Shown: positions 230 to 27,866 of the stretch, piece by piece
Layout of the letters: every line of letters begins with the position of its first letter
Numbering within the stretch: position 1 is the first letter of the stretch
Origin: Alienimonas californiensis
Lineage (GTDB): Bacteria > Planctomycetota > Planctomycetia > Planctomycetales > Planctomycetaceae
Assembly: GCF_007743815.1 (NCBI RefSeq)
Contig: NZ_CP036265.1
Span: 1,914,323 to 1,978,322 of the forward strand
Direction: 5' to 3'
DNA: 64,000 bases
Program-made: the position numbers and the translations under genes
The notes under the pieces: model-generated
Database searches by the model: none
Told to the model about the DNA's origin: nothing
Seen by the model: the letters and a program-made list of their open reading frames with translations, nothing else

Positions 230-1018
230 ATGCTCGCCCCGACGCTCGCCGCGGCCCTGGTCGCCCCGGCCCTGCTGCTCGCCGCCCCCGATCACCACGA
301 AGAAAAGGCGTCCTCCGGCGCCACGGTCCTGTTCGACGGCTCCTCCACCGACGCCTGGGAGAAGTACACCGGCGGGGAGATCGGCTCCAAGTGGGTCGTC
401 GAAGACGACGCCCTGCACTTCCTCGGCAACGAGGGCCAGGGCAGCGGCGGGGACATCCAGACCAAGCAGACCTTCGGCGACTTCGACCTGCGGTTCGAGT
501 TCAAGGTCGCCGAGGGCGCTAACAGCGGCGTGATCTACGGCGTGGTCCCCAAGAAGGGCGAGCCGGCCTACAAGACCGGCCCCGAGTATCAGATCCTCGA
601 CGACTCCAAGCACGGCGACGGCAAGAACCCCAAGACCAGCGCCGCCGCCCTGTACGCCCTGTACGCGCCGCAGGTGCATAAAACCTGCCCCGCGACCGGC
701 GCCGTCCCCTGCCCGCACACCCCCAAGCCGATGAAGGCCGTTGGCGAGTGGAACAGCGGCCGGATTGTGAAGACCGGCGCCCGCATCCGCCACTACCTCA
801 ACGGCGTGAAGGTGGTCGACGTGCGGCTGGACTCCCCCGAGTTCAAGGAAGCCGTCGCCAACAGCAAGTTCAAGGGGTGGAACGAGTTCGCCCAGCCGCT
901 CGCCAAGAATGAGAAGACCCGCATCGTGCTGCAGGACCACGGCAACTCCGTCTGGTTCCGCAACGTGACCGTGCAGAAGCCGACCCTCACCGAAGACGGC
1001 CCGCTGCTGGAAGGCTGA
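230..1018 (+). CDS. DUF1080 protein (3-keto-disaccharide hydrolase family), exported
   Basis: A 262-residue protein with a signal peptide (MLAPTLAAALVAPALLLAA) followed by one DUF1080 domain (PF06439), a concanavalin-like fold. Family hallmarks are visible: FDGSSTDAW near the start, DFDLRFEFKVAEGANSGV, GPEYQILDD, the HYLNGVKVVDV strand and LQDHGNSVWFRNVTV at the end. Characterised relatives hydrolyse 3-keto-glycosides, and planctomycetes carry many copies for polysaccharide use. The frame stays open upstream to a TTG at 176, but the ATG at 230 puts the signal peptide at the N-terminus and is preferred. A strong hairpin follows at 1109-1140. The sugar substrate cannot be told from sequence. 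Confidence 0.9.
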   Translation: MLAPTLAAALVAPALLLAAPDHHEEKASSGATVLFDGSSTDAWEKYTGGEIGSKWVVEDDALHFLGNEGQGSGGDIQTKQTFGDFDLRFEFKVAEGANSGVIYGVVPKKGEPAYKTGPEYQILDDSKHGDGKNPKTSAAALYALYAPQVHKTCPATGAVPCPHTPKPMKAVGEWNSGRIVKTGARIRHYLNGVKVVDVRLDSPEFKEAVANSKFKGWNEFAQPLAKNEKTRIVLQDHGNSVWFRNVTVQKPTLTEDGPLLEG

Positions 1019-1035
1019 ACGCCGACGGAACTGAA

Positions 1036-1086
1036 CTGAACCGAGCTGAACCGAGCTGAACCGAGCTGAACCGAGCTGAACCGAGC
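1036..1086. repeat. Tandem 10-bp repeat (ccgagctgaa), about 5 copies
   Basis: Four exact copies of ccgagctgaa fill 1041-1080, with partial units on both sides. The array lies in the gap just after the DUF1080 stop and before its terminator hairpin. It encodes nothing obvious. The period of 10 bp is close to one helical turn. Confidence 0.9.
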
Positions 1087-1108
1087 GGTTCGGCGAAACG
1101 TTCGCACC

Positions 1109-1140
1109 GCGGCCGGGGTTCCTTCGGGAGCCCCGGCCGC
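1109..1140 (+). terminator. Terminator hairpin after DUF1080 gene
   Basis: A perfect 10-bp G+C stem (gcggccgggg with ccccggccgc) encloses a 12-base loop containing CTTCGG. It is followed by TTT. It lies 90 bases after the DUF1080 stop and just before the next gene, so it probably ends that transcript. Confidence 0.7.
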
Positions 1141-1192
1141 TTTGCGTAAGATGGCCGCCGACGGCCCCTTCCCTCTTCGCACCGGACGCTGC

Positions 1193-2965
1193 ATGTTCGT
1201 CGCCCCGCTCCTGTTCGCCGCCCTCGCCGCGGGCGACGTCGCCCTGACGCCCGTCCCCTTCCCCGCGGACGCCGAACTGCGGGACGTGCACGGGGCCCGC
1301 ACCACGCTGGGCGCGGCGCTCGCCGACGAGAGCGGCGAACCGGCCCGGGCCGCGGTGATCGTGTTCGTGGGAACCGAGTGCCCGCTGGTGCAGATCACGG
1401 CCCCCCGGCTGCGGGCCGTCGCGGAGGAGGGTCGGAAGGACGGCGTGCGGCTCGTGCTGGTCGACGCCAACCGGCAGGACTCGCTGAGCGACCTCGCCGA
1501 GTTTCGCACCCGGCACGAGTTCGACAAAGCCGGCGTGCCGGTCCTCAAAGACCCCGGTAACACGCTGGCCGACGCGCTGAAGGCCGAACGCACGCCGGAG
1601 GTGCTGATCTTCGGTCCGTCGGGGAAAGACGGCCGCACGCTGCGGTATCGCGGGCGGATCGACGATCAGTACGGCGTGGGCACCGCGAAGGCGTCCGCGT
1701 CGCGGGATGATTTCGGCCTCGCATTGGCCAGCGTGCTGAAGGGCGAACCGGTCGCGGAGCCGGCGACGGAGGTCGTCGGCTGCAAGATCGGCCGCGCCCG
1801 CGAGGTCGATCCGAACGCCGCCGTCACCTGGGCGAGCGGTCCGGACGGGGCTCCCGGCGCCGCGGCGGTGATCTTCGACAAGTGCGCCCCCTGCCACCGC
1901 CCCGGCGAGGCGGCGCCCTTCGCCCTGCTGGACTACGAGGAAGCCGCCGGCTGGGGGCCGATGCTGGCCGAGGTCGTCAAAGAGGACCGCATGCCGCCCT
2001 GGCCCGCCGACCCGGCCCACGGGGAGTTCAGCAACGACGCCCGCCTCTCCGCCGCGGAGAAGGAAACGCTGCTGACCTGGGTGAAGGCCGGCTGCCCCGA
2101 GGGCGACGCCGACGCCGCCCCGGCCCCGCCGACGTTCGCCGAGGGTTGGCGGATCGGCGAGCCCGACGCCGTCTTCGCCATGGCCGACGAGCCCGCCCAG
2201 GTGCCGGCCGAGGGGGTGATCGATTACCGCTACCTCCGCGTCGACCCGGGCTTCACCGAAGACAAATACGTCGTCGCCGCGGAGCCCCGGCCGGGCAACC
2301 CGGCGGTGGTGCATCACATCATCGTGCGGGTGATCCCGCCGGACGCCAACAAGAAGATCAACGCCGGCGACGCCCTGATCGGCTACGCCCCCGGCCTGCC
2401 GCCGATGCAGCTCAAGCCCGGTCAGGCGTTCAAGATCAAAGCCGGTTCGCAGTTCCTGTTCGAAATGCACTACACCGCCAACGGCCGGCCGGCGACGGAC
2501 CTGTCGCACGTCGGGTTAAAGTTCCTCGACCCCGCGGAGTTCGGCGGGGAGGAGAGCCTCACGCTGGTCCGCAGCGAGGCCGTGATGACCCACCGCTTCG
2601 AGATCCCTCCCGGGGCGAAGTCCCACGAAGTGACGGCCTCCCGCAAGGCCCCCGGCGACTTCACCCTGCTGGCCCTCACCCCGCACATGCACTTCCGCGG
2701 CGCCAGTTTTCGCTACGACCTGACGACGCCCGACGGCGAGACGAAGACCCTACTGAACGTGCCGGAGTACGACTTCAACTGGCAGCTCCGCTACGACCTC
2801 GCCGAGCCGCTGCGGGTGAAGAAGGGCTCCACGATCACCTGCACGGCGACCTTCGACAACAGCGCCGGCAACCCCCGCAACCCGGACCCGACCGTCGCCG
2901 TCCGCTGGGGCGAGCAAAGCTGGGAAGAGATGATGATCGGCTTCCTGCTGATCGCCTCGGAGTGA
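1193..2965 (+). CDS. Redoxin / cytochrome c / copper monooxygenase-like fusion protein
   Basis: A 590-residue exported protein with three parts. After a signal peptide (MFVAPLLFAALAAG) comes a thioredoxin-like AhpC/TSA domain (about 20-200) with a single-Cys GTECPLV motif. A c-type haem site, CAPCH at residues 231-235, follows with a distal Met in the RMPPWP segment. The C-terminal half (about 340-585) resembles the copper type II monooxygenase C-terminal fold, with His clusters VVHHIIV, FEMHYT and LTPHMHFRG as likely copper ligands. Such fusions are common in planctomycetes and called redoxin-domain proteins; the substrate is unknown. The ATG at 1193 is preferred over one at 1151 because it starts the signal peptide. 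Electron transfer between the domains is inference. Confidence 0.88.
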   Translation: MFVAPLLFAALAAGDVALTPVPFPADAELRDVHGARTTLGAALADESGEPARAAVIVFVGTECPLVQITAPRLRAVAEEGRKDGVRLVLVDANRQDSLSDLAEFRTRHEFDKAGVPVLKDPGNTLADALKAERTPEVLIFGPSGKDGRTLRYRGRIDDQYGVGTAKASASRDDFGLALASVLKGEPVAEPATEVVGCKIGRAREVDPNAAVTWASGPDGAPGAAAVIFDKCAPCHRPGEAAPFALLDYEEAAGWGPMLAEVVKEDRMPPWPADPAHGEFSNDARLSAAEKETLLTWVKAGCPEGDADAAPAPPTFAEGWRIGEPDAVFAMADEPAQVPAEGVIDYRYLRVDPGFTEDKYVVAAEPRPGNPAVVHHIIVRVIPPDANKKINAGDALIGYAPGLPPMQLKPGQAFKIKAGSQFLFEMHYTANGRPATDLSHVGLKFLDPAEFGGEESLTLVRSEAVMTHRFEIPPGAKSHEVTASRKAPGDFTLLALTPHMHFRGASFRYDLTTPDGETKTLLNVPEYDFNWQLRYDLAEPLRVKKGSTITCTATFDNSAGNPRNPDPTVAVRWGEQSWEEMMIGFLLIASE

Positions 2966-3071
2966 GGCGGCCCGGGGGTCGTAGGGCGAGGGACGGAGGG
3001 CGAGGGGCGTCGGCCTGACGGCGTGCGGGGGGTTCCGGCGGTCCCCCACGCGTCGGCGCTGGCCGATCCGC

Positions 3072-3077
3072 TACAAT
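3072..3077 (+). promoter_or_regulatory. Putative -10 element (TACAAT)
   Basis: TACAAT, one base off TATAAT, lies 35 bases upstream of the radical SAM start at 3107. No convincing -35 box is visible in this GC-rich stretch. Confidence 0.4.
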
Positions 3078-3106
3078 GGAGAACCGACCTCCCCACGCTG
3101 ATTGTC

Positions 3107-4558
3107 ATGCCCGATCTCGCCCCCGCCGACGCTGACGCCGCCGACCAGGCGCTGCCGAACCGCCTGCCCGTCGTCGACTCCGCCGCAGAGGCGAAGTCGA
3201 CCGGCGACGGCTGCGACTCGAACGGTTCGACGACCACCACCCAGGCCAAGGGCTCCACGGAGGTCGGCAGCTACTTCGTCTCGAACTACCCGCCGTTTTC
3301 CCAGTGGACGAAGGAGGCCGTGCCCGCGGCGCTGGACGCCCTGAACGGCAAGCCCCCGAGCGGGGCGATCGACCCGTCGATCCCGCTGGGGTTGTATATC
3401 CACATCCCCTTCTGCCGGAAGCGCTGTAAGTTCTGCTATTTCCGCGTCTATACGCAACAGAACGCCAAAACCGTGCGGGGCTACGTGGACAGCCTCGAAG
3501 CGGAGTTCGCCAAGCTAGAAAACACGCCCGGCGTGCAGGGCCGGGAGCTGGAGTTCGCCTACTTCGGCGGCGGGACGCCCAGCTATTTGAGCAGCAAACA
3601 GCTCCGCAGCATGCGGGACAAGCTGCAAACGCACCTGAACTGGGAGACCGCCCGCGAGGTCACCTTCGAGTGCGAACCCGGCACGCTCAACGAGGAAAAA
3701 GTCCAGACCCTCAAGGAGATCGGCGTCACCCGCCTGTCGCTGGGGATCGAAAACTTCGACGACACAATCCTGGAGGTCAACGGCCGGGCCCACCTTACGC
3801 CGGAGGTTTATCAGGCGTGGGAGTGGATCAAAGCGGCCGACTTCCCGCAGGTGAATATCGACTTGATCGCCGGGATGATCGGGGAAACGGACGAGAACTG
3901 GCAGCGGAACTTGGAGGAGGCCGCCAAGCTCGAGCCGGACAACGTGACCGTCTATCAGATGGAGTTGCCGCACAACACGATTATCTCCAAGGAGATTAAA
4001 GAGCTGGGCGTCGACAGCCCCATCGCGGACTGGGACACCAAGCGCCGCTGGATGGACGAAACGATCGATTTCCTCGCCGGCTACGGCTACGTGCCGTCCT
4101 CCGGCAACGAGTTCGTCAAGAGCCGAGAAAACGATCGTTTCGTCTACCGGGACAGTCTGTGGCGCGGCGCCGACCTGCTGGCGACCGGCGTGAGCAGCTT
4201 CGGGCACTTCCAGGGGGTGCATTATCAGAACCTGGATAAGATCGACGATTATCAGGCCGCCGTCGCCGCCGGCGACTGGCCGATCAACCGGGCGCTGGTG
4301 CCGTCCAAGCATCAGCAGCTCATCCGCGAGTTCGTGCTGCAATTGAAGGAGGGCCGCGTCCACGTCCGGCCGTTCCGCGAAAAATTCGGCGTGGACCTGC
4401 GAGAAGAGTTCGCCGAACCCCTGAAGAATCAAACCGCCGCGGGCTATCTGAACGTCGAGGGCGACGAGATCGTCCTGACCCGCAAGGGCCTGCTGCAAAC
4501 CGACAGCCTGCTGCCCGAGTATTTCGAGGAGCAGTTTAAGCGGGTGCGTTACACGTGA
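3107..4558 (+). CDS. HemN/HemW-like radical SAM protein
   Basis: A 483-residue radical SAM enzyme of the coproporphyrinogen III oxidase-like family. The 4Fe-4S motif is CRKRCKFC (Cys103, Cys107, Cys110), preceded by the HemN/HemW signature LYIHIPFC and followed by [11 protein letters not shown], the SAM-binding glycine motif. The remainder follows HemW/HemN layout, including the [10 protein letters not shown] and GVSSFGHF segments and a C-terminal HemN-like domain. True HemN oxidises coproporphyrinogen, HemW is a haem chaperone, and class C radical SAM methylases share the same fold, so the reaction is not fixed. The first 90 residues are polar and unlike the family. The ATG at 3107 follows a TACAAT hexamer; the frame is open further upstream. 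The next gene starts 4 bases after the stop. Confidence 0.85.
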
Positions 4559-17565: not shown

Positions 17566-18366
17566 ATGCCCGGCCGTTTAGAAGGCAAAACCGCGTTCGT
17601 CACCGGCTCCAGCAAGGGGATCGGGGCGGGGATCGCCGTCGAATTGGCCCGCGAGGGGGCGGACGTGGCGATCAACTACCGCTCCAGCGCCGAGGAGGCG
17701 GAGGCCGTCGCCGCCCGAGTCCGCGACCTCGGCCGGACCGCCGTCACCCTACGGGGCGACGTGGGCGATCAGGCCACGATCGAACGCCTCGTCGCCGAGG
17801 CCGCGGAGCAGTTGGGCGGGCTGGACCTGTTCGTCTCCAACGCCGTCTACAGTGCCCGGGAGCCGTTCCTCGACGCAGATCTGGACGAGTTTAAAAAGAC
17901 GATCGACGTCTCCATGTGGGGCGCCTTCTACGGCGTGCGGGCCGCCTGCCGACTCATGCGGGAGCAGTTCAATTCGAACGGCCGCGGCGGGAGCGTGCTG
18001 GTCGTTTCCAGCCCGCACGCGGACATCGCCTTCCCCACGGCGATGGCCTACAACATGGCCAAGGCGGCGCTGGATCAGATGGCCCGCACCGCCGCGGTGG
18101 AGATGGCGAAATACGACGTGCGGGTCAATATCCTGCACCCCGGCTGGATCGACACACCCGGCGAGCGCAAGTTCTTCACGGAGGAACAGATCGCCGAGGG
18201 GGCGAAGTCGCTGCTCTTAAAACGTCTCGGCACGCCGGAGGAGTGCGGCAAGGCGGCGGCGTACGTCCTGAGCGACGACGCGGCCTATATGACCGGCTCC
18301 ACGCTGAGCCTCGACGGCGGCGTCAAACTCCCCTACTGGAGCCGCCGCGAAGAGGGCGGGCAGTGA
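17566..18366 (+). CDS. SDR-family oxidoreductase (FabG-like)
   Basis: A 266-residue short-chain dehydrogenase. The cofactor motif TGSSKGIGAGIA is at 14-25, and the catalytic residues lie in VVSSPHADIAFPTAMAYNMAK, which supplies the Ser and the Y-x-x-x-K pair. The usual NNAG motif is replaced by SNAVYS, an uncommon change that may affect the active-site wall. The C-terminal YMTGSTLSLDGGVKLP is standard. FabG-like proteins use NADP(H) on 3-oxoacyl or sugar substrates; the exact one is not readable. The start follows a TACACT hexamer by 40 bases. A gtagggtccgc arm follows the stop. Confidence 0.88.
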   Translation: MPGRLEGKTAFVTGSSKGIGAGIAVELAREGADVAINYRSSAEEAEAVAARVRDLGRTAVTLRGDVGDQATIERLVAEAAEQLGGLDLFVSNAVYSAREPFLDADLDEFKKTIDVSMWGAFYGVRAACRLMREQFNSNGRGGSVLVVSSPHADIAFPTAMAYNMAKAALDQMARTAAVEMAKYDVRVNILHPGWIDTPGERKFFTEEQIAEGAKSLLLKRLGTPEECGKAAAYVLSDDAAYMTGSTLSLDGGVKLPYWSRREEGGQ

Positions 18367-18392
18367 GTTCGTAGGGTCCGCTACGGCCGCCG

Positions 18393-19079
18393 TCAGTCCA
18401 ACTCCACCGCCCCCAGCACGGCGGCCAGCGGGATCTTCAAGCCCGGCACCACGTCCCGGCCGTCCAGCGTGCCGTCCGCGGGAATCGTTTCGTCCGGCGC
18501 CTCGACCGAGGTATAGACCTCGCAGGTCCCGGCAGCGGGGTCGATCTGCCAGATCAGCCGGGTGCCGGCGGCGAAAAAGTCCTGCCGTTTCCGCCGCATC
18601 TCGCCGGGGCGGTTCGAGGGAGACAGCACCTCGATCGCGAGATCGGGGTACAGGTCCGGGTAGGCCGGCTCGGAGGGGAACCGGCCGGACGGAACCTGTT
18701 CCGCCCGGATCACCGCCACGTCCGCGGCTCGCGTCCGCCGGCCGGTGAGTCGCAAAAAGGCCTGCCCGCCCAACACCCAGCCGATTTTCTTCCCGCGGAT
18801 CGCGTTGCGGATCAGGGTCAGCAACTCGCCGCCCATCAAGTCGGATTCGGCGCCCACGGCTTTCTCGATCAGGGTCCCGTCGACCAGTTCGCACAGTCGG
18901 CCGGTCTCGCGCTGGACGCGCGCGATGTCCTCCTCCGTTGCGGTTCCGGGGGCGGGGTCCATCACAATACGGAACAGCGGTACGTCGCCGAACTGTTCCA
19001 TGATGTCGGCGACCGTCACGGCCGCGTCGGCCGTGGCGGCGCCAGGGCGGAGCGGCGGGGCGTCGAGGGTCGCGGGCAT
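18393..19079 (-). CDS. Uma2-family (DUF820) putative nuclease
   Basis: A 228-residue Uma2 protein, a family with a PD-(D/E)XK nuclease fold that is greatly expanded in planctomycetes and cyanobacteria. The family pattern is present: CELVDGTLIEKAVG, then RAADVAVI (Asp), YPDLAIEVLSPSN (Glu) and KRQDFFAAGTRLIWQIDP (Lys and core strand). The N-terminal 35 residues are an extension. Its target is unknown. It stands alone on the minus strand, convergent with the SDR gene; the DUF932-like gene on the same strand ends 56 bases upstream of its start. Confidence 0.85.
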   Translation of the reverse strand: MPATLDAPPLRPGAATADAAVTVADIMEQFGDVPLFRIVMDPAPGTATEEDIARVQRETGRLCELVDGTLIEKAVGAESDLMGGELLTLIRNAIRGKKIGWVLGGQAFLRLTGRRTRAADVAVIRAEQVPSGRFPSEPAYPDLYPDLAIEVLSPSNRPGEMRRKRQDFFAAGTRLIWQIDPAAGTCEVYTSVEAPDETIPADGTLDGRDVVPGLKIPLAAVLGAVELD

Positions 19080-19106
19080 GTCCTGATTCTAACCGAGAAC
19101 GAACCC

Positions 19107-19135
19107 CTCCGGGGGCTGACGCCCCCGGCTCGCCG
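19107..19135. repeat. Repeat gggggctgacgcccccggct
   Basis: A short palindromic element between the Uma2 start and the DUF932-like stop. A close copy, with ggggggctgacgccccccgc, occurs at 56012-56038 after the SBF transporter gene. Confidence 0.8.
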
Positions 19136-20353
19136 TCAGGCTTCAGGGTTGTCGGTCGGCTTCGCGGCGTCGTCGTTCACGAAGAAGTCCTGGAAGTCGC
19201 CGTATTGGTCGGCGGTGCCTTCGAGGTCGTATTCGCCGCTGACCAGCTCGCCGGCCCAGGCGTGCAGGCGGCGGGCGTGGGCCGGGCCGGCGTGGTGGGT
19301 GGCGACCTCCGTGGCGAAGTTCAGCAGGTCGTACACCTTGCACTTCACCGGCAGGGTTTTCTGCCGCTTCGCGGACAGGGCGTCGGCGTTCGCCAAGCCG
19401 TACAGACGGGTCACGTCGCCGGTCGTCTGGTGGAACCGCTTGAGCAGGTGCGTGCCGAGGTCCCTGCGTTCGAACAGCCCGTCGGCACTGGCCCCGTCGG
19501 TGCCGAAGTTCGACGGGCCGCCGCCGTTCGACCCGCTCCCGCCGCCGCCGGTCAGCTTGGCGAGGAGATTATACAGGCCGGCCGCCTCGTGGACGCTGGC
19601 CCAGCTTTCGGCGGCGCTTTCGAACCGCTGCCGTAGGGCGGCGTAGCCTTCGTCGTTATTAAAGCCGTCCAGCGCCCGGCTGAGGGTATAGGTGACTTCG
19701 TCGTCCCCCTTCCCCAGCGCCAGTTGGCTGCGGAAGGCCGGGGCCTCGCCGATCATGCCGTTGGAACAGACCTCGCGCAGCAGCGAGAGATAAATGTTCG
19801 GCTGCCCGAACCCGTCCACCGGCGTGCGGACGACGAACCGGTTGGCGAAGGCGTCGCCGGAGACGTGGAACCGGTGCCCCACCCGCGGGGCGTGGTGACT
19901 TTCGACCACGCCGTTGTGATAGGTCACGCGGTCGCCGTCGTAGCGGTGCAATAATTCCCGCAGGTCGTCGTGCTTGACGACGGCCTTGGTCGGGTTGGAG
20001 ACCGCCAGCAGGGAGCCGGCGCCCTGTTCGTTGCGCTCCACGGCGAACCGCAGGCGGTCCGAGGGGCTGCGGGCGGCGAGGCGTTCGAAGACTTCGGCGT
20101 GGTCGAAGTAATTGAACACCGATTTGCCGATGCCGAACCGCATAAAGAAGCTGGTCCAGAACCGTCCGCTCGGCCGCAGCGGCTCGTCGTTCACATAGAC
20201 CGCGGCCACTTTCGGAGCCCGACTGCGAGAGTCGTCGCATTCCTCCAGTTCGACCCGCAGATCGCCCACGGAGGCGACGCCGTATTCAATTCGCGGCTCG
20301 AAAGTCGGTCGCGGCCCGGGCGTCGAAACGGCGGCGGCGGGGGCGGTCTGCAT
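19136..20353 (-). CDS. DUF932-like protein
   Basis: A 405-residue soluble protein. The segment YLSLLREVCSNGMIGEAPAF resembles the conserved C-S-N-G core of DUF932, a family found in phages, plasmids and bacterial chromosomes, and the length agrees. Other features are a two-part body (about 20-270), a Gly/Ser-rich linker near 272-290, and a C-terminal part with KCKVYDLLNFATEVATHH, which recalls the same family. No catalytic motif is visible. Its stop abuts a dispersed repeat. Function unknown; the domain call is by pattern only. Confidence 0.6.
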   Translation of the reverse strand: MQTAPAAAVSTPGPRPTFEPRIEYGVASVGDLRVELEECDDSRSRAPKVAAVYVNDEPLRPSGRFWTSFFMRFGIGKSVFNYFDHAEVFERLAARSPSDRLRFAVERNEQGAGSLLAVSNPTKAVVKHDDLRELLHRYDGDRVTYHNGVVESHHAPRVGHRFHVSGDAFANRFVVRTPVDGFGQPNIYLSLLREVCSNGMIGEAPAFRSQLALGKGDDEVTYTLSRALDGFNNDEGYAALRQRFESAAESWASVHEAAGLYNLLAKLTGGGGSGSNGGGPSNFGTDGASADGLFERRDLGTHLLKRFHQTTGDVTRLYGLANADALSAKRQKTLPVKCKVYDLLNFATEVATHHAGPAHARRLHAWAGELVSGEYDLEGTADQYGDFQDFFVNDDAAKPTDNPEA

Positions 20354-20618
20354 TGATCCGATCCTTCGGGACGGCCGCGAACGGCCGGGGTGACGATTAC
20401 GGGGACGGCGCCGGTCGTGCCGTCGGCGGCACTGTACCGACCGCCACCAGTCCGGGCGAGGGCCTGCCCGGAATGCGTCGCCTTCGGGATCAGGGGAAAC
20501 CGGGCGGCAAAGGCGGATTTGACGGTTGCCGGCGCCGGGTGGCGTCGAAACGATCCCGGGATTCTCGTCGGGTCCTTCTGCGACCTGTCATCTCCGACGC
20601 GTCTCCCTCGCTGCGGCC

Positions 20619-22418
20619 ATGTCCCCAGAACGTCCCGATGCCATCGCGAACGCCGGTTCCCTGGTGCAGGAGGGCGACTGGACGCTGCTGACGGCGGCGA
20701 TCGATTCGGCCAACTCGATGATCGCCGTGGCGGACGTGCGGGCCGCCGATCAGCCGCTGGTCTTCGTCAACGGCTACTTCTGCGAGTTCACCGGCTACTC
20801 CCGGGAGGAGGTCGTCGGGCGGAACTGTCGGTTCCTGCAAACTGCGCCCGGCGGCCGCGACGCGGATCAGCCGGGCGTGCAACGGATCCGCGACGCCGTC
20901 GCCGCCGGCGAACGCTGCAAGGTCCTGCTGCGGAACTACAAAAAGGACGGCACGCCCTTCTGGAACGAGCTGTACCTCTCCCCGGTCCGGGCGGGCGGCG
21001 GGGAGGAGGTGACGCACTACGTCGGCGTGCAGAACGACGTCACCGAGCATCTCGAATGCGAGCGGGAGCGCCTGATCCTCGCCGAGGCCGTGCGCACGCT
21101 GGACGAATCGGTGATTATCACCGGCCCGAACCTGGAGGCGCCGGGGCCGGAGATCCGGTTCGTCAATGAGGCCTTCGAGCGGATGACCGGCTACGACTGG
21201 GACGAGGCGGTCGGCCGCAACCCCAGAATGTTACAGGGGCCGGACACCGACCCCGGCGAGACCGAGCGCCTGAAGACGCAACTGCGGGCCGGTCGCTCCT
21301 TCCGCGGGGAGGCCGTGAACTACCGCAAGGACGGCGAACGCTACGTCGTGCAGTGGACCGCGGCGCCGGTCTGGGCGCACGCGGTGCACGGCATCGAGGG
21401 CGGCCTGTACGGCGGGCCGGGCATGAGCGGCCACTCCGGCGGCCTGCGACGCCCCGACCTCCCGGCCGGTCCGCGACGGCCCGTTGGGCCGGGCGAACCG
21501 CGACGCCCCCCGGGGGCGCCCTCCCATTACGTCGCCAGTCAGCGGGACGTGACGGCCCGCCGGGCCCTGGAGCGGGAGGTGCTCGAGGGCCGCAGCTACG
21601 AGCAGGCCCGCATCGCCCGGGACCTGCACGACGGCCCGGCCCAAGACGTGATGGCGTTGAAGTTCCTCGTGGCGGCGCTGTCCCGGCAGGTCGGGCTGGA
21701 CGTCGGCGATCCTCAGGCCCTGCACGCCGCCGCCCACGACGAGAGCGGCGCCCCCCGCTTCGACACCCCCCAGGCCCTCGCCGCCCATCTGCTCTCCCAG
21801 GCGGACGACGCCGCCAACCGCGTGCGGCAGGTCGCCCGGGGGTTGATGCCGATCGGCGGGGTGCGGGGCGAACTGACCGCCGCCCTGACGCGGCTGGCCG
21901 CGGAGCGGTCCGCCCTCGCCGCCCGCGACGCGAAGGCCCCCGGCCCGACGGTCGCGTTCGCCGGAACGCCCGCCGACGAGCCCGACGCCCCGGACGTCCG
22001 TAACGAGCTGTACCACCTGGCGCGGGAGGCGGTCGGCAACGCCCAGCGGCACAGCGGGGCCAGCCGCATCGAGATCGCCCTGCGGCGGACCGACGGGGCC
22101 GTCCGGCTGAGCGTCGCCGACGACGGCGTGGGGATGTCCTCCGAACTGGCCGCCGCCGCCGGCCGCATCGACGGGCTGGACGGCCGGGGCGAACGCCGCC
22201 CGGCCGCCGGCGGCGTGGGCCTGCGGAGCATGCGCTACCGGGCCGAGGTGCTCGGCGGCTCCCTGGCGATCGAACCGGCCGTCCCCGCCGTCGACGGCCG
22301 CCCGGCCCGCGGCGTCCGGATCGTGTGCACGCTGTCCGCCAGCGGCCCCCCGGGCGCCGACCAACGGGATTCGCCCCGCACCGCCGGCGACGACGAGAGC
22401 GACGACCCGGACGCGTGA
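20619..22418 (+). CDS. LOV-domain (blue-light) sensor histidine kinase
   Basis: A 599-residue kinase. The first PAS domain (about 25-140) is a LOV domain: GRNCRFLQ carries the photoactive Cys70, and NYKKDGTPFWNELYLSPV supplies the flavin-contact Asn residues. A second PAS domain (about 150-300) is LOV-like but has Pro in place of the Cys (GRNPRMLQGP) and a Pro/Gly-rich insert of about 50 residues. A NarX/DesK-type DHp helix follows with ARDLHDGPAQDV (His337), then an HATPase with AREAVGNAQRHSG, VADDGVGM and GVGLRSMRYRAEVLGG. No membrane helix is visible, so it is cytoplasmic. LOV-kinases form a flavin-cysteinyl adduct in blue light. No response regulator is adjacent. ATG at 20619 chosen. Confidence 0.9.
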   Translation: MSPERPDAIANAGSLVQEGDWTLLTAAIDSANSMIAVADVRAADQPLVFVNGYFCEFTGYSREEVVGRNCRFLQTAPGGRDADQPGVQRIRDAVAAGERCKVLLRNYKKDGTPFWNELYLSPVRAGGGEEVTHYVGVQNDVTEHLECERERLILAEAVRTLDESVIITGPNLEAPGPEIRFVNEAFERMTGYDWDEAVGRNPRMLQGPDTDPGETERLKTQLRAGRSFRGEAVNYRKDGERYVVQWTAAPVWAHAVHGIEGGLYGGPGMSGHSGGLRRPDLPAGPRRPVGPGEPRRPPGAPSHYVASQRDVTARRALEREVLEGRSYEQARIARDLHDGPAQDVMALKFLVAALSRQVGLDVGDPQALHAAAHDESGAPRFDTPQALAAHLLSQADDAANRVRQVARGLMPIGGVRGELTAALTRLAAERSALAARDAKAPGPTVAFAGTPADEPDAPDVRNELYHLAREAVGNAQRHSGASRIEIALRRTDGAVRLSVADDGVGMSSELAAAAGRIDGLDGRGERRPAAGGVGLRSMRYRAEVLGGSLAIEPAVPAVDGRPARGVRIVCTLSASGPPGADQRDSPRTAGDDESDDPDA

Positions 22419-22438
22419 GGCGCCGACCCCGCCGGCGC

Positions 22439-22624
22439 TCAGCCCCCGGTTCGTTCCGCTTCCAGCCGGTCGATCTCCTGCTCAAGCGCCGCGGCCTCCG
22501 CGTGGACGGCGCTAGCGGCGACGACGCCCTGATTGCGGGAGACCTCCGCGGCCCGCTCCAGCGTTTTGGCGAGCTTCGCCTTCAACGCCTCCAGCGGGTC
22601 CTTCTTCTTGAACAGACCGAACAT
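22439..22624 (-). CDS. Small helical protein, DUF6435/Lacal_2735-like
   Basis: A 61-residue protein, MFGLFKKKDPLEALKAKLAK followed by a second helix ending in LEQEIDRLEAER. The opening and the two-helix layout match the small Lacal_2735/DUF6435 family found widely in Bacteroidetes and other marine bacteria. It is highly charged and probably a soluble helical hairpin. Function unknown. It is convergent with the LOV kinase gene (20 bases apart). The next minus-strand gene upstream is separated by a repeat cluster. Confidence 0.75.
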   Translation of the reverse strand: MFGLFKKKDPLEALKAKLAKTLERAAEVSRNQGVVAASAVHAEAAALEQEIDRLEAERTGG

Positions 22625-22706
22625 GACGAACTGGGGGCGGGAGACGCGGGCGGGGACGAGAGGTTGTAGGACGCTCCGCGACCCTGTCGCGGATTGAACC
22701 GTTCGT

Positions 22707-22808
22707 ATCCCCCCTCGCCCCCTTTTGGGGGAGAGGGGGGAAGAGTGCGACGAACCTCTCTCGGGCTTGGCTGAACCGTCCTCCCCTCTCCCTGAGGGAG
22801 AGCGGAGC
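22707..22808. repeat. Two copies of the cctcacccccggcccctctc repeat family
   Basis: Shortened copies around 22707-22742 and 22782-22808, each with an inner hairpin (gccccctttt / gggggaga and ctccctgagggag). They sit between the small helical protein and the HD-domain gene. Confidence 0.75.
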
Positions 22809-24212: not shown

Positions 24213-24719
24213 ATGGCCTCCCGACCGCCCTTCCGCCGCCCCGGTTCTCCACGGCGTCCCGCGGCGCGGCGCGGGGCGGCGTTGGTGGAGTTCGCCGTCT
24301 GTCTGCCGCTGTTCGCCCTGTTCTTAGCGGCGATTCTGGAGGTGAACCACGCCTCCATGACCGCCGCCACAATGCGGGCCGCCGCGGAAAAGGCGGGTCG
24401 GATGGGAGTCATGGAGGGGGTCTCCACCGCGGAGGTCGAGGCCCTCGCCCGCGAAACCGCCGGCGCCGCGGTACCGAACGCCGACATCCGCGTGCTGGTG
24501 AAGAACGCCGCCGCGTTCGATTCCGGCGGCGATCCGACCGCCTTGTCGGCGGCGTCGCTGCCGGACATCGAGCTGCTCTCCGCCCGCCCCCGCCAACTGT
24601 TCCTGGTGCGGGTGGAGGTGACCTATCAGGACGTCAGCCTGATCCCGCCGTTCCTGCTCAAGGGACCGGACGGCGGGCCGAAAGTGATCTACGGGCAGGC
24701 GGTCAATCGCCATGAATAA
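24213..24719 (+). CDS. TadE-like pilus assembly protein
   Basis: A 168-residue TadE-family pseudopilin. A basic head (RRPAARRGAALVEFAVCLP) leads into one membrane helix; the G-A-x-x-V-E-F pattern, with Glu five residues into the helix, is the TadE signature and TadV prepilin peptidase target. The globular part follows. It is the first gene of a three-gene operon; its last 8 bases overlap the next TadE gene. The Tad system builds adhesive Flp pili, but neither the ATPase nor the Flp pilin is within the window. Confidence 0.85.
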   Translation: MASRPPFRRPGSPRRPAARRGAALVEFAVCLPLFALFLAAILEVNHASMTAATMRAAAEKAGRMGVMEGVSTAEVEALARETAGAAVPNADIRVLVKNAAAFDSGGDPTALSAASLPDIELLSARPRQLFLVRVEVTYQDVSLIPPFLLKGPDGGPKVIYGQAVNRHE

Positions 24720-25245
24720 CGGCCTCCGCCCCGCCGCCCGCCCTGCCGCCCCCCGTTTTGCCCGCGGTCCCGGCCGCCGTCCCGGCGCCCGCTGCAAGCG
24801 GCGGGGGGCGGCGTTGGTCGAATTCGCCGTCGTCGCGCCCTTCTTCGTCATGCTGGTGGTCGCCAGCGCGGAGATGAACGCCTGCATCCAGGAGGTGCAC
24901 CGGCTCTCCGCGGCGCTGCGGGAGGCCGGCCGCCTCTCCTCGATGGATTGGGACGAATCGCTGCCGGGCAGTCAGACCCCGGGGGAGAAGATCGAGGAGG
25001 ACGTCAAGAACTTCCTCGCCGCCGGCGGCACCCCGCGGGAGGACGTCGAGTTCTCGATGAGCCACGCCGAAGGCGATTCGGCGGGCGAACCCTTCGCCCT
25101 GGGAAACTCTGCGAACCGGCTGGAGCTGTTCACGATGGAGGCCAGCCTGCCCACGCCCGGCGGGGCGTTTGCGCAGGTCTGGTTCGGCGACCGGCTGCGG
25201 GTGCGGTTTACCTTCCGCGCCGGCCGCGACAGCCACGAGCTCTAA
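24712..25245 (+). CDS. TadE-like pilus assembly protein, second copy
   Basis: A 177-residue TadE-family member with a longer basic head and the motif RRGAALVEFAVVAPFFVML at the membrane helix (about 30-55). The rest is acidic and extracytoplasmic. The start ATG overlaps the end of the first TadE gene by 8 bases. TadE and TadF are usually paired minor pseudopilins, so this may fill the TadF role. Confidence 0.85.
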   Translation: MNNGLRPAARPAAPRFARGPGRRPGARCKRRGAALVEFAVVAPFFVMLVVASAEMNACIQEVHRLSAALREAGRLSSMDWDESLPGSQTPGEKIEEDVKNFLAAGGTPREDVEFSMSHAEGDSAGEPFALGNSANRLELFTMEASLPTPGGAFAQVWFGDRLRVRFTFRAGRDSHEL

Positions 25246-25311
25246 CTCTCCTCCGGAGACACGGACTCCGTCTGACTCCGCATCGACCTATCTATAACTC
25301 ACAAGAACTCC

Positions 25312-27195
25312 ATGCAACGCTCCCTCCTGGTCGACCGACTTCGTGACTCATGGCGTCCGGCTCGGGCTCCCGACCGGCGGGGGGTGTTCACGCCGATCGC
25401 GGCGGTCTGCCTGTTCGCGGTGTTGGGGTTCGTGGCGCTGGGCGTGGATCTGGGGCTGATCTCCCTGACGCGGGCGCGGATGCAGTTCGCCACCGACGCC
25501 GCCGCCCTCGCCGCCGTGCACGAGCTGGCGGACGTCGTCGCCGAGGGCGAGGACCCCGGCGCGCTGGACGCGGAGATGGCCGCCCGGGCCCGCGCGATGG
25601 CCGTGAAGGTCGCCGGGATGAACGAGACCTTCGTCGACGGGGATCTCGACGTGCGGCTGGGCCGGCGGGTGTACGACGGCGACCTGGGCCGCTACCGCAT
25701 CCAGTGGGGCTCGGCTCCGTATAACGTCGTGGAGGTCGCGGCTCGCAAGGAGAACCCGAACACCTCCGCCCCGGACGGGCAGATGCCCGCGTTCTTCAGC
25801 CGGATCTTCGGGCTGACCGGACACTCCTTTCGGGTCTCCAGCATCGCTTATACCGAGCCCCGCGACCTCGTGCTGGTGCTCGACTATTCCGCCTCGATGA
25901 ACGACGACAGCGAGTTCCCGGCGTTCAACCGCCTCGGCGAGGCGGAGGTGACCGAGAACCAACTGGAGATCTACGACGCCCTCGGCCTCAGCGACGGCCT
26001 GCTGCCGGACGAGCCGGAGCGGGTCACGCTGCACGGCGTGCCTGAAGATACGCGTCGCCGCATTCCCCACATCACGTTCACCCCGGGCCCTTGGGGCGGG
26101 CGGGTCACCAGCACGGCCGACATCGACCGCCTCTGGGTCCTCGACAGTTCCGGCCGGTGGACGCAGCACAGTAACGTCGGGAAGTCGCACACGTTCTCCA
26201 CGAGCGGCTACCGCGTCGAGGAGGTGCGGGTCCTTTCCTGGAGAAACGACCGGGACTTCGGCGAGTACGGCGAGCGGATCGTCTTCAACACCGCCAATAC
26301 CCTGAAGGGCCTGGGGCTGGACGGCGTGAACTATCCCTTCCCCGGCGGCAGCTGGGCGGAGTTCTTCTGGTTCATGGAGCACACCAACACCGCCTACGCG
26401 GCCGGTCAACTGATGGAATACGGTAAGCCGGGGCTGGTCAGCTACATCCTCGCCTATCACCCCAGCCACGCGGCCACGCCCACGCTATGGCGGGCGCCGG
26501 CCCAGCCCTTCCACGCCATGAAGGAGGGCGTGTCGCAGTTGACGGAGTACCTCGGCAGCCTCGGCTACGGGGACCACCTCGGCCTGGTCAGCTACGACAC
26601 CACCGCCCGTTGGGAAACCCGCGTGAACGACCCGGCCGCCGGCATGGTCGCGGACGTCACCGGCGACCCCATCACCATGGACTACGCCGCAATTGACACG
26701 ATCCAGCGGCACCGCCAGGCCGGTTATTACCAGTCCACCACCGGCCTGGGCGACGGCGTAAAGGAGGCCCAACGGATGCTCGCCGAGCACGGCCGCTACG
26801 GCGCCCGGCCGACGATCCTGGTGATGACGGACGGCAACGCCAACGTCAGCCCCAGCGGCTTCTCCCTCCCGGGCGACTGGGATTGGGACGAACTCACGGA
26901 CTTCGACGGCGACGGCGCCGCCGACTACACCACCAACGACCGTCACAAACAGTACGCCTTCTATCACGCCCGCGAGGCGATTAACGAGGGCGCCACAGTG
27001 CACACCCTCAGCGTCGGCGCCGGGGCGGACGGGGCTCTGATGAACGCCATGGGCTACGCCGGCAACGGCGTGCACATCGACGTCCCCGGCGGCAACAGCT
27101 CCGAGGATAACGAAGAATTATTGCGGGAGGCCTTCCGCAAAATCGCCGCCCGCGTCCCCCCGCCCCGCCTGATGCTCGACCGCGACGCGGACTGA
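25312..27195 (+). CDS. Tad-type protein with von Willebrand factor A domain (TadG-like)
   Basis: A 627-residue protein. The N-terminus (RRGVFTPIAAVCLFAVLGF, about 23-60) is a TadG/Tad helix followed by the usual RARMQFATDAAALAA. A VWA domain begins near 185 with the MIDAS motif DYSAS (Asp191, Ser193, Ser195) and later VMTDGNANVS, which supplies the second metal Asp. About 200 residues are inserted between the MIDAS and the rest of the VWA fold. It is probably anchored outside the cytoplasmic membrane as part of Flp pilus or adhesion. It follows the two TadE genes by 66 bases. Confidence 0.85.
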   Translation: MQRSLLVDRLRDSWRPARAPDRRGVFTPIAAVCLFAVLGFVALGVDLGLISLTRARMQFATDAAALAAVHELADVVAEGEDPGALDAEMAARARAMAVKVAGMNETFVDGDLDVRLGRRVYDGDLGRYRIQWGSAPYNVVEVAARKENPNTSAPDGQMPAFFSRIFGLTGHSFRVSSIAYTEPRDLVLVLDYSASMNDDSEFPAFNRLGEAEVTENQLEIYDALGLSDGLLPDEPERVTLHGVPEDTRRRIPHITFTPGPWGGRVTSTADIDRLWVLDSSGRWTQHSNVGKSHTFSTSGYRVEEVRVLSWRNDRDFGEYGERIVFNTANTLKGLGLDGVNYPFPGGSWAEFFWFMEHTNTAYAAGQLMEYGKPGLVSYILAYHPSHAATPTLWRAPAQPFHAMKEGVSQLTEYLGSLGYGDHLGLVSYDTTARWETRVNDPAAGMVADVTGDPITMDYAAIDTIQRHRQAGYYQSTTGLGDGVKEAQRMLAEHGRYGARPTILVMTDGNANVSPSGFSLPGDWDWDELTDFDGDGAADYTTNDRHKQYAFYHAREAINEGATVHTLSVGAGADGALMNAMGYAGNGVHIDVPGGNSSEDNEELLREAFRKIAARVPPPRLMLDRDAD

Positions 27196-27200
27196 GCGAC

Positions 27201-27866
27201 CTAATTCGCTCCGCCGTGCTCCCCCGGGCGCACGGCGGAGCGCCATTCTTTGAGCAGGTCGAAGTGCTCCGCCTCGTCCCGGCGGGCGATCAGTTCGGCG
27301 GCAAACGCGACCGGGAACCCCGGCAATTCACCGCTCTCCGCCGCGACTTCATAACCCTCGTCGCCGTTCCGACGGTGGACGGTCAGCGTCTCGTCCGCCC
27401 AGACCCACACCTCCGGCACCCCGAGGGCCGCGTAAATCGGCAGCTTGGCGACGCCGAGGCTGGTCACGTCGACTTCGACGCACAAATCCGGCGGCGGATC
27501 GCCGGCTTGCAGGTCGATCCGGTTTCGGTCTCTCAAATTGGGCAGGGAGGCGACGTAGTAGCACAGGTCCGACTCCAACCCCCGCTGAAGGTCCGCCCGG
27601 CTCTGCGTGAGACTGCCGACGCCCCGCACGGCGATGCGACGTTCCTCGGTGAAGGCGGCGATCAGCAGGCCGAGCCACCAACCGACAGATTCATGCAGCG
27701 ACCCGTTGGGCATCTCGATCTCCAGCAGGCCGCCGGCGGGGCCGTCGTAGGTCAGCTTGACGTGCGCGTTCTCCGGCTTGGCCCGCATAGCGACGTACTC
27801 GTCCCACGTCACCCCCCGTAGCACCGTCGGCCGCCGGGGGGCGGGTCGCTTGTCAAGCTGCGGCAT
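27201..27866 (-). CDS. Uma2-family (DUF820) putative nuclease, second copy
   Basis: A 221-residue Uma2 member, only distantly similar to the one at 18393-19079. The nuclease-fold positions are visible: ESDLCYYVAS (Asp), PDLCVEVDVTS (Glu) and AKLPIYAALGVPEVWVW (Lys and core strand). The opening TWDEYVAM is typical of one Uma2 subfamily. It is convergent with the VWA gene (5 bases apart). Function unknown. Confidence 0.85.
   Translation of the reverse strand: MPQLDKRPAPRRPTVLRGVTWDEYVAMRAKPENAHVKLTYDGPAGGLLEIEMPNGSLHESVGWWLGLLIAAFTEERRIAVRGVGSLTQSRADLQRGLESDLCYYVASLPNLRDRNRIDLQAGDPPPDLCVEVDVTSLGVAKLPIYAALGVPEVWVWADETLTVHRRNGDEGYEVAAESGELPGFPVAFAAELIARRDEAEHFDLLKEWRSAVRPGEHGGAN

Follow-up and report, generated by a model that had tools for sequence, protein, structure and literature searches.

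A gene in the window (the whole 64,000-nucleotide stretch of Alienimonas californiensis DNA analyzed here, positions 1914323-1978322 on a contig of 5,475,215 bases) encodes a LOV-PAS-HisKA_3-HATPase sensor histidine kinase which, from its sequence and predicted fold, very probably switches on blue light (Table 1). Computation established the domain order, a complete flavin pocket and set of catalytic motifs, the LOV kinship and fold, the absence of a neighboring regulator, and a linkage to one regulator family elsewhere. On sequence, the assignment as a LOV histidine kinase is strong and unremarkable, the general kind being known and common in the class. The protein is probably a cytosolic blue-light sensor kinase that passes its phosphoryl group to one or both of two orphan NarL-type regulators. 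New here are the naming of likely partner regulators and the absence of the gene from a sister species.

The coding signal of the gene is strong, with GC3 of 0.86-0.97 in all seven segments. A check for five Shine-Dalgarno-like words upstream of the ATG at 20619 gave no hit, so the start is uncertain, and an in-frame TTG at 20526 is an alternative. A promoter and terminator scan at the gene found nothing, which says little at such GC content. Pfam recognized two PAS_9 stretches, HisKA_3, and HATPase_c in the product. The highest 19-residue hydropathy window (1.34) lies in a kinase helix, and the preliminary description's term "soluble" is therefore reasonable. In the predicted full-length model (mean pLDDT 82.1), the LOV domain, J-alpha helix, second PAS domain (PAS2), DHp, and ATPase parts are folded, mostly with pLDDT above 70; the pTM of 0.58 leaves the packing of the domains uncertain. 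A whole-protein search of genome contigs, in which near records may be omitted and the own genome gave no loci, returned at least 80 distant loci, mostly kinase cores, that served as alignment material.

Table 1. Features of the LOV kinase gene and its candidate partners (window positions, except those on C1)
Feature	Coordinates	Strand	Basis or size
LOV-PAS-HisKA_3-HATPase sensor histidine kinase gene	20619..22418	+	599 aa + stop
LOV domain (residues 22-150) and start of J-alpha helix	20682..21068	+	Pfam/NCBIfam, solved-protein matches, tree, model, profile
Cys70 codon, predicted flavin-adduct cysteine	20826..20828	+	motif GRNCRFLQ
Segment linked to E/F-loop spacing	20841..20852	+	alignments and spacing counts
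Second PAS domain (residues 151-312), ordinary PAS, not LOV	21069..21554	+	Pfam, tree, pocket alignment, profile
Gly/Pro/Arg-rich insert (residues 254-302), H-beta/I-beta loop of PAS2	21378..21524	+	codon bias, model, loop comparison
His337 codon, predicted phospho-acceptor; Gln342 completes HDxxxQ	21627..21629	+	motif RDLHDGPAQ
Extended turn of DHp helical hairpin (about residues 358-386)	21690..21776	+	His-to-GLMP spacing, model
HATPase_c catalytic domain (residues 461-573); Asn474, DDGVG (501-505)	21999..22337	+	Pfam, motifs
Segment holding the whole kinase gene, missing at the same A. chondri site (98 bp there)	20463..22454		genome comparison
Orphan NarL-type REC-GerE regulator	C1:1553720-1554430		236 aa
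Orphan NarL-type REC-GerE regulator	C1:3713377-3714081		234 aa

The LOV domain and its extended loop

Solved LOV receptors were the best sequence matches to residues 23-151 (E 3e-31), and chance resemblance to LOV sequences is excluded for this stretch. Residues 51-70 match the published LOV search pattern [NS]-x2-[FPGHSA]-x4-[GEQR]-x(9,11)-C, and the motif [ND]CRFLQ occurs once across the six frames of the window. Cys70, Arg71, Gln74, Arg91, Asn106, Asn116, and Gln138 are all present. The five C/R/N/N/Q positions, which we take to line the flavin pocket, all align to another LOV domain of the same genome. Profile A1, which includes the window domain and two relatives, gave the domain 191 bits, a score that is partly circular for that reason; on a profile lacking its own row and those of its two closest relatives it still scored 148 bits. 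Scores on two NCBIfam models stayed below their cut-offs, at 194.8 bits (cut-off 250; best stretch 23-150) for the YtvA family NF052652 and 176.5 bits (cut-off 450) for BluLightHisKinLov NF052306, an HWE-type blue-light kinase. In a tree of 95 domains over 133 columns, in which many forks are weak, the domain clusters with LOVs, apart from other PAS domains; one row labeled PAS (L016) also falls among the LOVs, weakly (98/0). A predicted model of residues 15-166 (mean pLDDT 90.6) has a LOV/PAS fold with flanking helices, and the best 50 Foldseek matches listed for it were all LOV structures. A second fold comparison gave Z 20.1 and rmsd 1.4 Å over 138 residues to the LOV domain of Meiothermus ruber. 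Collectively, sequence, tree, and predicted fold argue strongly that the domain belongs to the LOV photosensors. They agree with the preliminary description on the GRNCRFLQ motif with Cys70, and the flavin-binding Asn block that it named is present as Asn106 and Asn116 in a complete pocket.

All 65 candidates in the A. californiensis genome were scored, yielding three LOV proteins: the window kinase, a 674-residue kinase, and a 1426-residue hybrid. The 674-residue paralogue (L022:8558-10582; C1:951557-953581) is a LOV-PAS-HisKA_3 kinase that has an additional PAS-like part and carries the motif DCRFLQ. The hybrid (L023:6242-10519; C1:2862241-2866518) combines its LOV domain with GAF and PAS, HisKA, and two receivers. 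Sister-species comparisons were made with a same-genus genome (G001), probably A. chondri, where the orthologue of the paralogue has an open frame of 748 residues. Both the paralogue and this orthologue share the order LOV, further PAS, HisKA_3 with the window kinase.

The LOV domains of the window kinase and the paralogue group together (100/97) and have in common an extended E-alpha/F-alpha loop. By alignment, the adduct position and the first pocket Asn are 32 residues apart in 116 of 119 planctomycete LOV-type domains; the window protein has a spacing of 36, and the paralogue and its A. chondri orthologue each have 38. The loop is thus four residues longer in the window protein and six longer in the paralogue, and the three long loops among the 119 are all from Alienimonas. 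This count may overstate the rarity, because the set admitted domains of at least 130 bits on A1, so that divergent LOVs of other genera, perhaps with long loops too, could be missed; it was also pooled from several searches and is unevenly sampled. A regular expression could not measure the spacing in 24 of 120 domains; the alignment covered all 119 that remained after removal of one duplicate. LOV-type rows from other collections, some of them near-duplicates, all show the same gap against the window protein (15/15), one of them with one residue more than the rest.

Extended E/F loops also occur in Vivid, WC-1, and ZTL/FKF1, and ZTL structures were among the fold matches (Z 18.7). These are fungal and plant proteins, however, and their extension of about 9-11 residues is longer than the four of the window protein, which thus offers a bacterial case, with a short extension, of a loop whose role in fungal and plant LOVs is described as elusive. 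Plant ZTL, FKF1, and LKP2 are described as binding FMN with the extended loop, whose purpose the same source calls elusive (PMC6396943), and in Vivid the loop is described as touching the adenine of FAD (PMC6396943; PMC3836802). Given how short the extension is here, FAD binding by the window LOV domain should be regarded only as a possibility.

Kinase core, candidate partner regulators, and proposed mechanism

The kinase core carries the HDxxxQ signature, described as the motif of HisKA_3 kinases (PMC6798134), as H337-D338-GPA-Q342. The HisKA_3 model scored 25.4 bits, barely above its cut-off of 24, and covered 34 of its 68 positions. The distance from the His to GLMP is 71 residues, whereas the paralogue and its orthologue in A. 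chondri have 51. The marginal, half-length match is probably due to this helical hairpin being 20 residues longer than that of the paralogue, in which the DHp turn is normal. HATPase_c scored 46.5 bits against a cut-off of 26.4. N474, DDGVG (501-505), and GVGL (532-535) presumably form the N and G boxes of the ATPase. These results bear out the earlier assignment of a NarX/DesK-type core with His337, with the HisKA_3 score marginal. NarX, NarQ, and DesK are membrane-bound and sense nitrate/nitrite or the membrane state. Kinases of this type likewise have HDxxxQ and HATPase, as well as NarL-type partners, which linkage in relatives suggests for the window kinase too; DesK is named as a HisKA_3 kinase in one review (PMC6798134).

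The preliminary description had also noted that no regulator lies next to the kinase. No regulator of the family searched was found in the window, and none was found among the six neighboring genes scanned, two of which match no Pfam family. Nearby, window 24213-27195 holds three consecutive genes that form a cluster of Flp-pilus type, two of them TadE-like and one Tad/VWA (TadG-like). Two Uma2-type (putative endonuclease) genes lie on the minus strand within 10 kb (18393-19079 and 27201-27866).

Six GerE matches were found in the whole genome, and two of these are short REC-GerE regulators, the orphan NarL-type pair in Table 1 (here called 1553720 and 3713377). The 11 kb stretches around either one contain no kinase-core match. 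Their family is widespread, with a match at 1e-25 in at least 108 of 170 genomes of the taxonomic family. Within that taxonomic family, kinase-core matches to the window protein (11 at E 1e-20 or better, self excluded) have an orphan-family regulator next door in 8 of 11 cases; the three exceptions are the paralogue, its A. chondri orthologue, and a row in G594. Twelve of the neighborhoods examined were chosen by coordinates that suggested a pair, or to complete the eleven rows; the additional adjacent pairs seen (e.g., G017, G006, G008, G012, and G002) are excluded from the 8 of 11. Genus g367 (two species, G656 and G580) has a LOV-GAF-PAS-HisKA_3 kinase followed directly by an orphan-family regulator, with Pfam run on one of the pairs.

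A. chondri has one LOV match and one orphan-family regulator at the thresholds used, and this regulator is 96% identical to 3713377. The comparison, of two genomes only, suggests that the window kinase pairs with 1553720. Close homologues of 1553720 occur in G021 (83%) and G013 (73%), genomes with no match to the window protein at E 1e-20. In both, a different kinase that has a receiver-like part is found 1.2-5 kb away from them, so 1553720 may have another kinase. The A. californiensis genome contains seven HisKA_3 matches (six above cut-off) for few NarL-type regulators, which makes cross-talk possible. One of its HisKA_3 kinases (L136:4469-7369) has a C-terminal receiver with a NarL-like opening sequence.

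From these features we infer flavin binding, a light response, a direction of switching, a choice of partner, and an output for the window kinase. Blue light would drive formation of an adduct between the flavin, most likely FMN, and Cys70, and protonation of N5 would cause Gln138 to turn, following the LOV photocycle as outlined in a review (PMC6798134). The signal would leave the LOV beta-sheet by way of the J-alpha helix (residues 142-159) and travel via the ordinary PAS2 to the DHp helices, shifting the balance between autophosphorylation of His337 and the phosphatase activity of HDxxxQ (Gln342). The phosphoryl group would then be transferred in trans to 1553720, 3713377, or both REC-HTH regulators. 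A more elaborate proposal, which we consider doubtful, is a two-channel blue-light circuit in Alienimonas, with the two long-loop LOV-HisKA_3 kinases acting on the two paralogous orphan regulators and the loop altering the cofactor (to FAD) or the adduct lifetime. As part of the same doubtful proposal, the window kinase would pair with 1553720 and the paralogue with 3713377, the latter pair being kept by A. chondri; if true, the two channels would read light differently. It is unlikely that the LOV domain is mainly a flavin redox or temperature sensor for which light is incidental. LOV flavins are described as able to serve as redox sensors (PMC6798134), but both Alienimonas LOV-HisKA_3 kinases, and A. 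chondri as well, have retained the adduct Cys, which pure redox sensing would not need.

Gene history and the second PAS domain

The window kinase gene is present in only one of the two Alienimonas species, whereas the paralogue is present in both (70% identity over 702 residues). The flanks of the missing segment are contiguous on a single A. chondri contig, where C332:25-194 and 293-3172 correspond to window 22455-22624 and 17566-20462. They are separated there by 98 bases, so either A. californiensis gained about 2 kb or A. chondri lost it. Among the flanking repeats listed, none was convincing as the mark of a mobile element; they are short and GC-rich (25 of 28 inverted pairs listed). A palindromic GC-rich repeat at window 22688-22738 (arms 22708-22722/22727-22741) accounts for 23 of 50 listed A. 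chondri genome matches and belongs to a repeat family shared in the genus. Across 510 aligned residues the paralogue is 41% identical to the window protein, from which it differs in having DCRFLQ for NCRFLQ; no regulator was found beside it. The LOV domains of the paralogue and its orthologue are divergent: a profile free of Alienimonas rows gives them 107-109 bits, scores that ordinary PAS domains (93-130) also reach. Three things make for a ready comparison: the sister species, which has the flanks without the gene; the paralogue, found in both species; and the two candidate partners.

The absence from A. chondri, the long inserts in PAS2 and DHp, and the marginal HisKA_3 score could also be read as signs that the kinase is a lineage-specific copy of little function, expanded at three loops and heading for loss. 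This is very unlikely, since the frame is open, codon bias is strong in all segments including the insert, the motifs are intact, and the folded parts are mostly above pLDDT 70. A frameshift or decay origin for the PAS2 insert, in which residues 256-283 fall below pLDDT 50 in the full-length model, was likewise rejected because it contains no stop and the codon bias continues through it.

The preliminary description regarded PAS2 as a second LOV domain with Pro in place of Cys. The Pro is there, but pocket residues, profile scores, and tree indicate an ordinary PAS domain and rule out a dark (Cys-less) LOV. Its pocket reads P/K/N/V/Q versus C/R/N/N/Q in LOV, differing at three of five positions. 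On the LOV profile without the Alienimonas LOV-HisKA_3 rows it reached 67 bits for its best stretch, or 85 without the insert, compared with 148 for the first domain. In the tree it falls within a 28-member clade of ordinary PAS domains (100/98) and, inside that clade, in a subclade of 11 (100/96) with TPRxLQ or SPRILQ motifs, its exact position being weak (81/0). The Cys-less LOVs L276, L277 (NPRFLQ), L278, L302, and L304 were placed among the LOVs in the same tree. That PAS2 nevertheless binds flavin as a LOV domain without the Cys is highly improbable: Asn234 and Gln308 are retained, and flavin without the Cys is reported to be still able to signal (PMC4682037), but the Cys, the F-alpha Arg, and the second Asn are replaced by P, K, and V, tree and scores align the domain with ordinary PAS, and its H-beta/I-beta loop is 54 residues long versus 11 in the three relatives that were measurable (five tried).

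LOV proteins in planctomycetes and known blue-light kinases

The suggestion that few light receptors are described in this phylum finds no support at the level of sequences. In Planctomycetia, at least 66 of 397 genomes have a LOV-type match at E 1e-40 or better, and in four of these (G359, G449, G465, and G563) every such domain is Cys-less. Relaxing the threshold to E 1e-32 raises the count to at least 83 of 397, the low end of which includes ordinary PAS domains. In a phylum-wide sample, at least 13 of 294 genomes had LOV-type matches scoring 130 bits or more, one (G209) with Ser for Cys. All of these are minimum counts, since the large surveys scored the first 7-16 candidates per genome. 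The adduct Cys is present in 109 of 119 distinct planctomycete LOV-type domains of at least 130 bits. The ten lacking it (L276, L277, L278, L302, L304, L306, L213, L250, L305, and L152) have Ala, Pro, Leu, Ile, Trp, Phe, or Ser instead; L276, L277, and L278 come from one 10-Mb genome (G420) with six LOV matches. A 2014 survey included Planctomycetes in its LOV/BLUF histogram (PMC4844311), and PYP homologues are reported in Planctomycetota (PMC12826048). The open-licence literature searched, as far as its accessible text goes, yielded no characterized LOV protein or blue-light kinase from planctomycetes.

The coupling of LOV to HisKA_3 is less common. A regular expression for the HisKA_3 H-box found none after 114 of 120 planctomycete LOV-type domains; it flagged six, two of them spurious by eye, and unrecognized cases are possible. 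The combination is credible in the three Alienimonas proteins and in the two of genus g367. The portions consulted of two articles (PMC8092228 and PMC6798134) describe no natural LOV-HisKA_3 protein. Blue-light kinases have drawn study in proteobacteria and as tools of optogenetics (PMC8092228; PMC13322254). Brucella LOV-HK and its relatives (solved LOV-PAS-HK, 6ph4) likewise have an N-terminal LOV, a middle PAS, and a C-terminal kinase, but the Brucella enzyme is described as an HWE kinase (PMC8092228), in contrast to the HisKA_3 of the window protein. YtvA and the engineered YF1 (4gcz, to which the window LOV model gave Z 19.2) share the LOV domain and differ in output, given as STAS for YtvA and as a FixL kinase with FixJ for YF1 (PMC10949197; PMC6798134). 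A parallel in domain content outside the phylum is a 375-residue "sensor histidine kinase" on a Massilia litorea plasmid (WP_193689247.1), with LOV (NCRLLQ), HisKA_3, and HATPase; it differs in lacking the middle PAS and in having a loop of standard length. None of the five features listed near it is a regulator, in PLSDB gene tables that are incomplete. Its existence indicates that the LOV-HisKA_3 combination is not confined to Planctomycetota. LOV relatives are also encoded on 18 viral-classed IMG/VR contigs (L329-L346), some of 155-500 kb, which may be either phage-borne or mis-sorted bacterial DNA.
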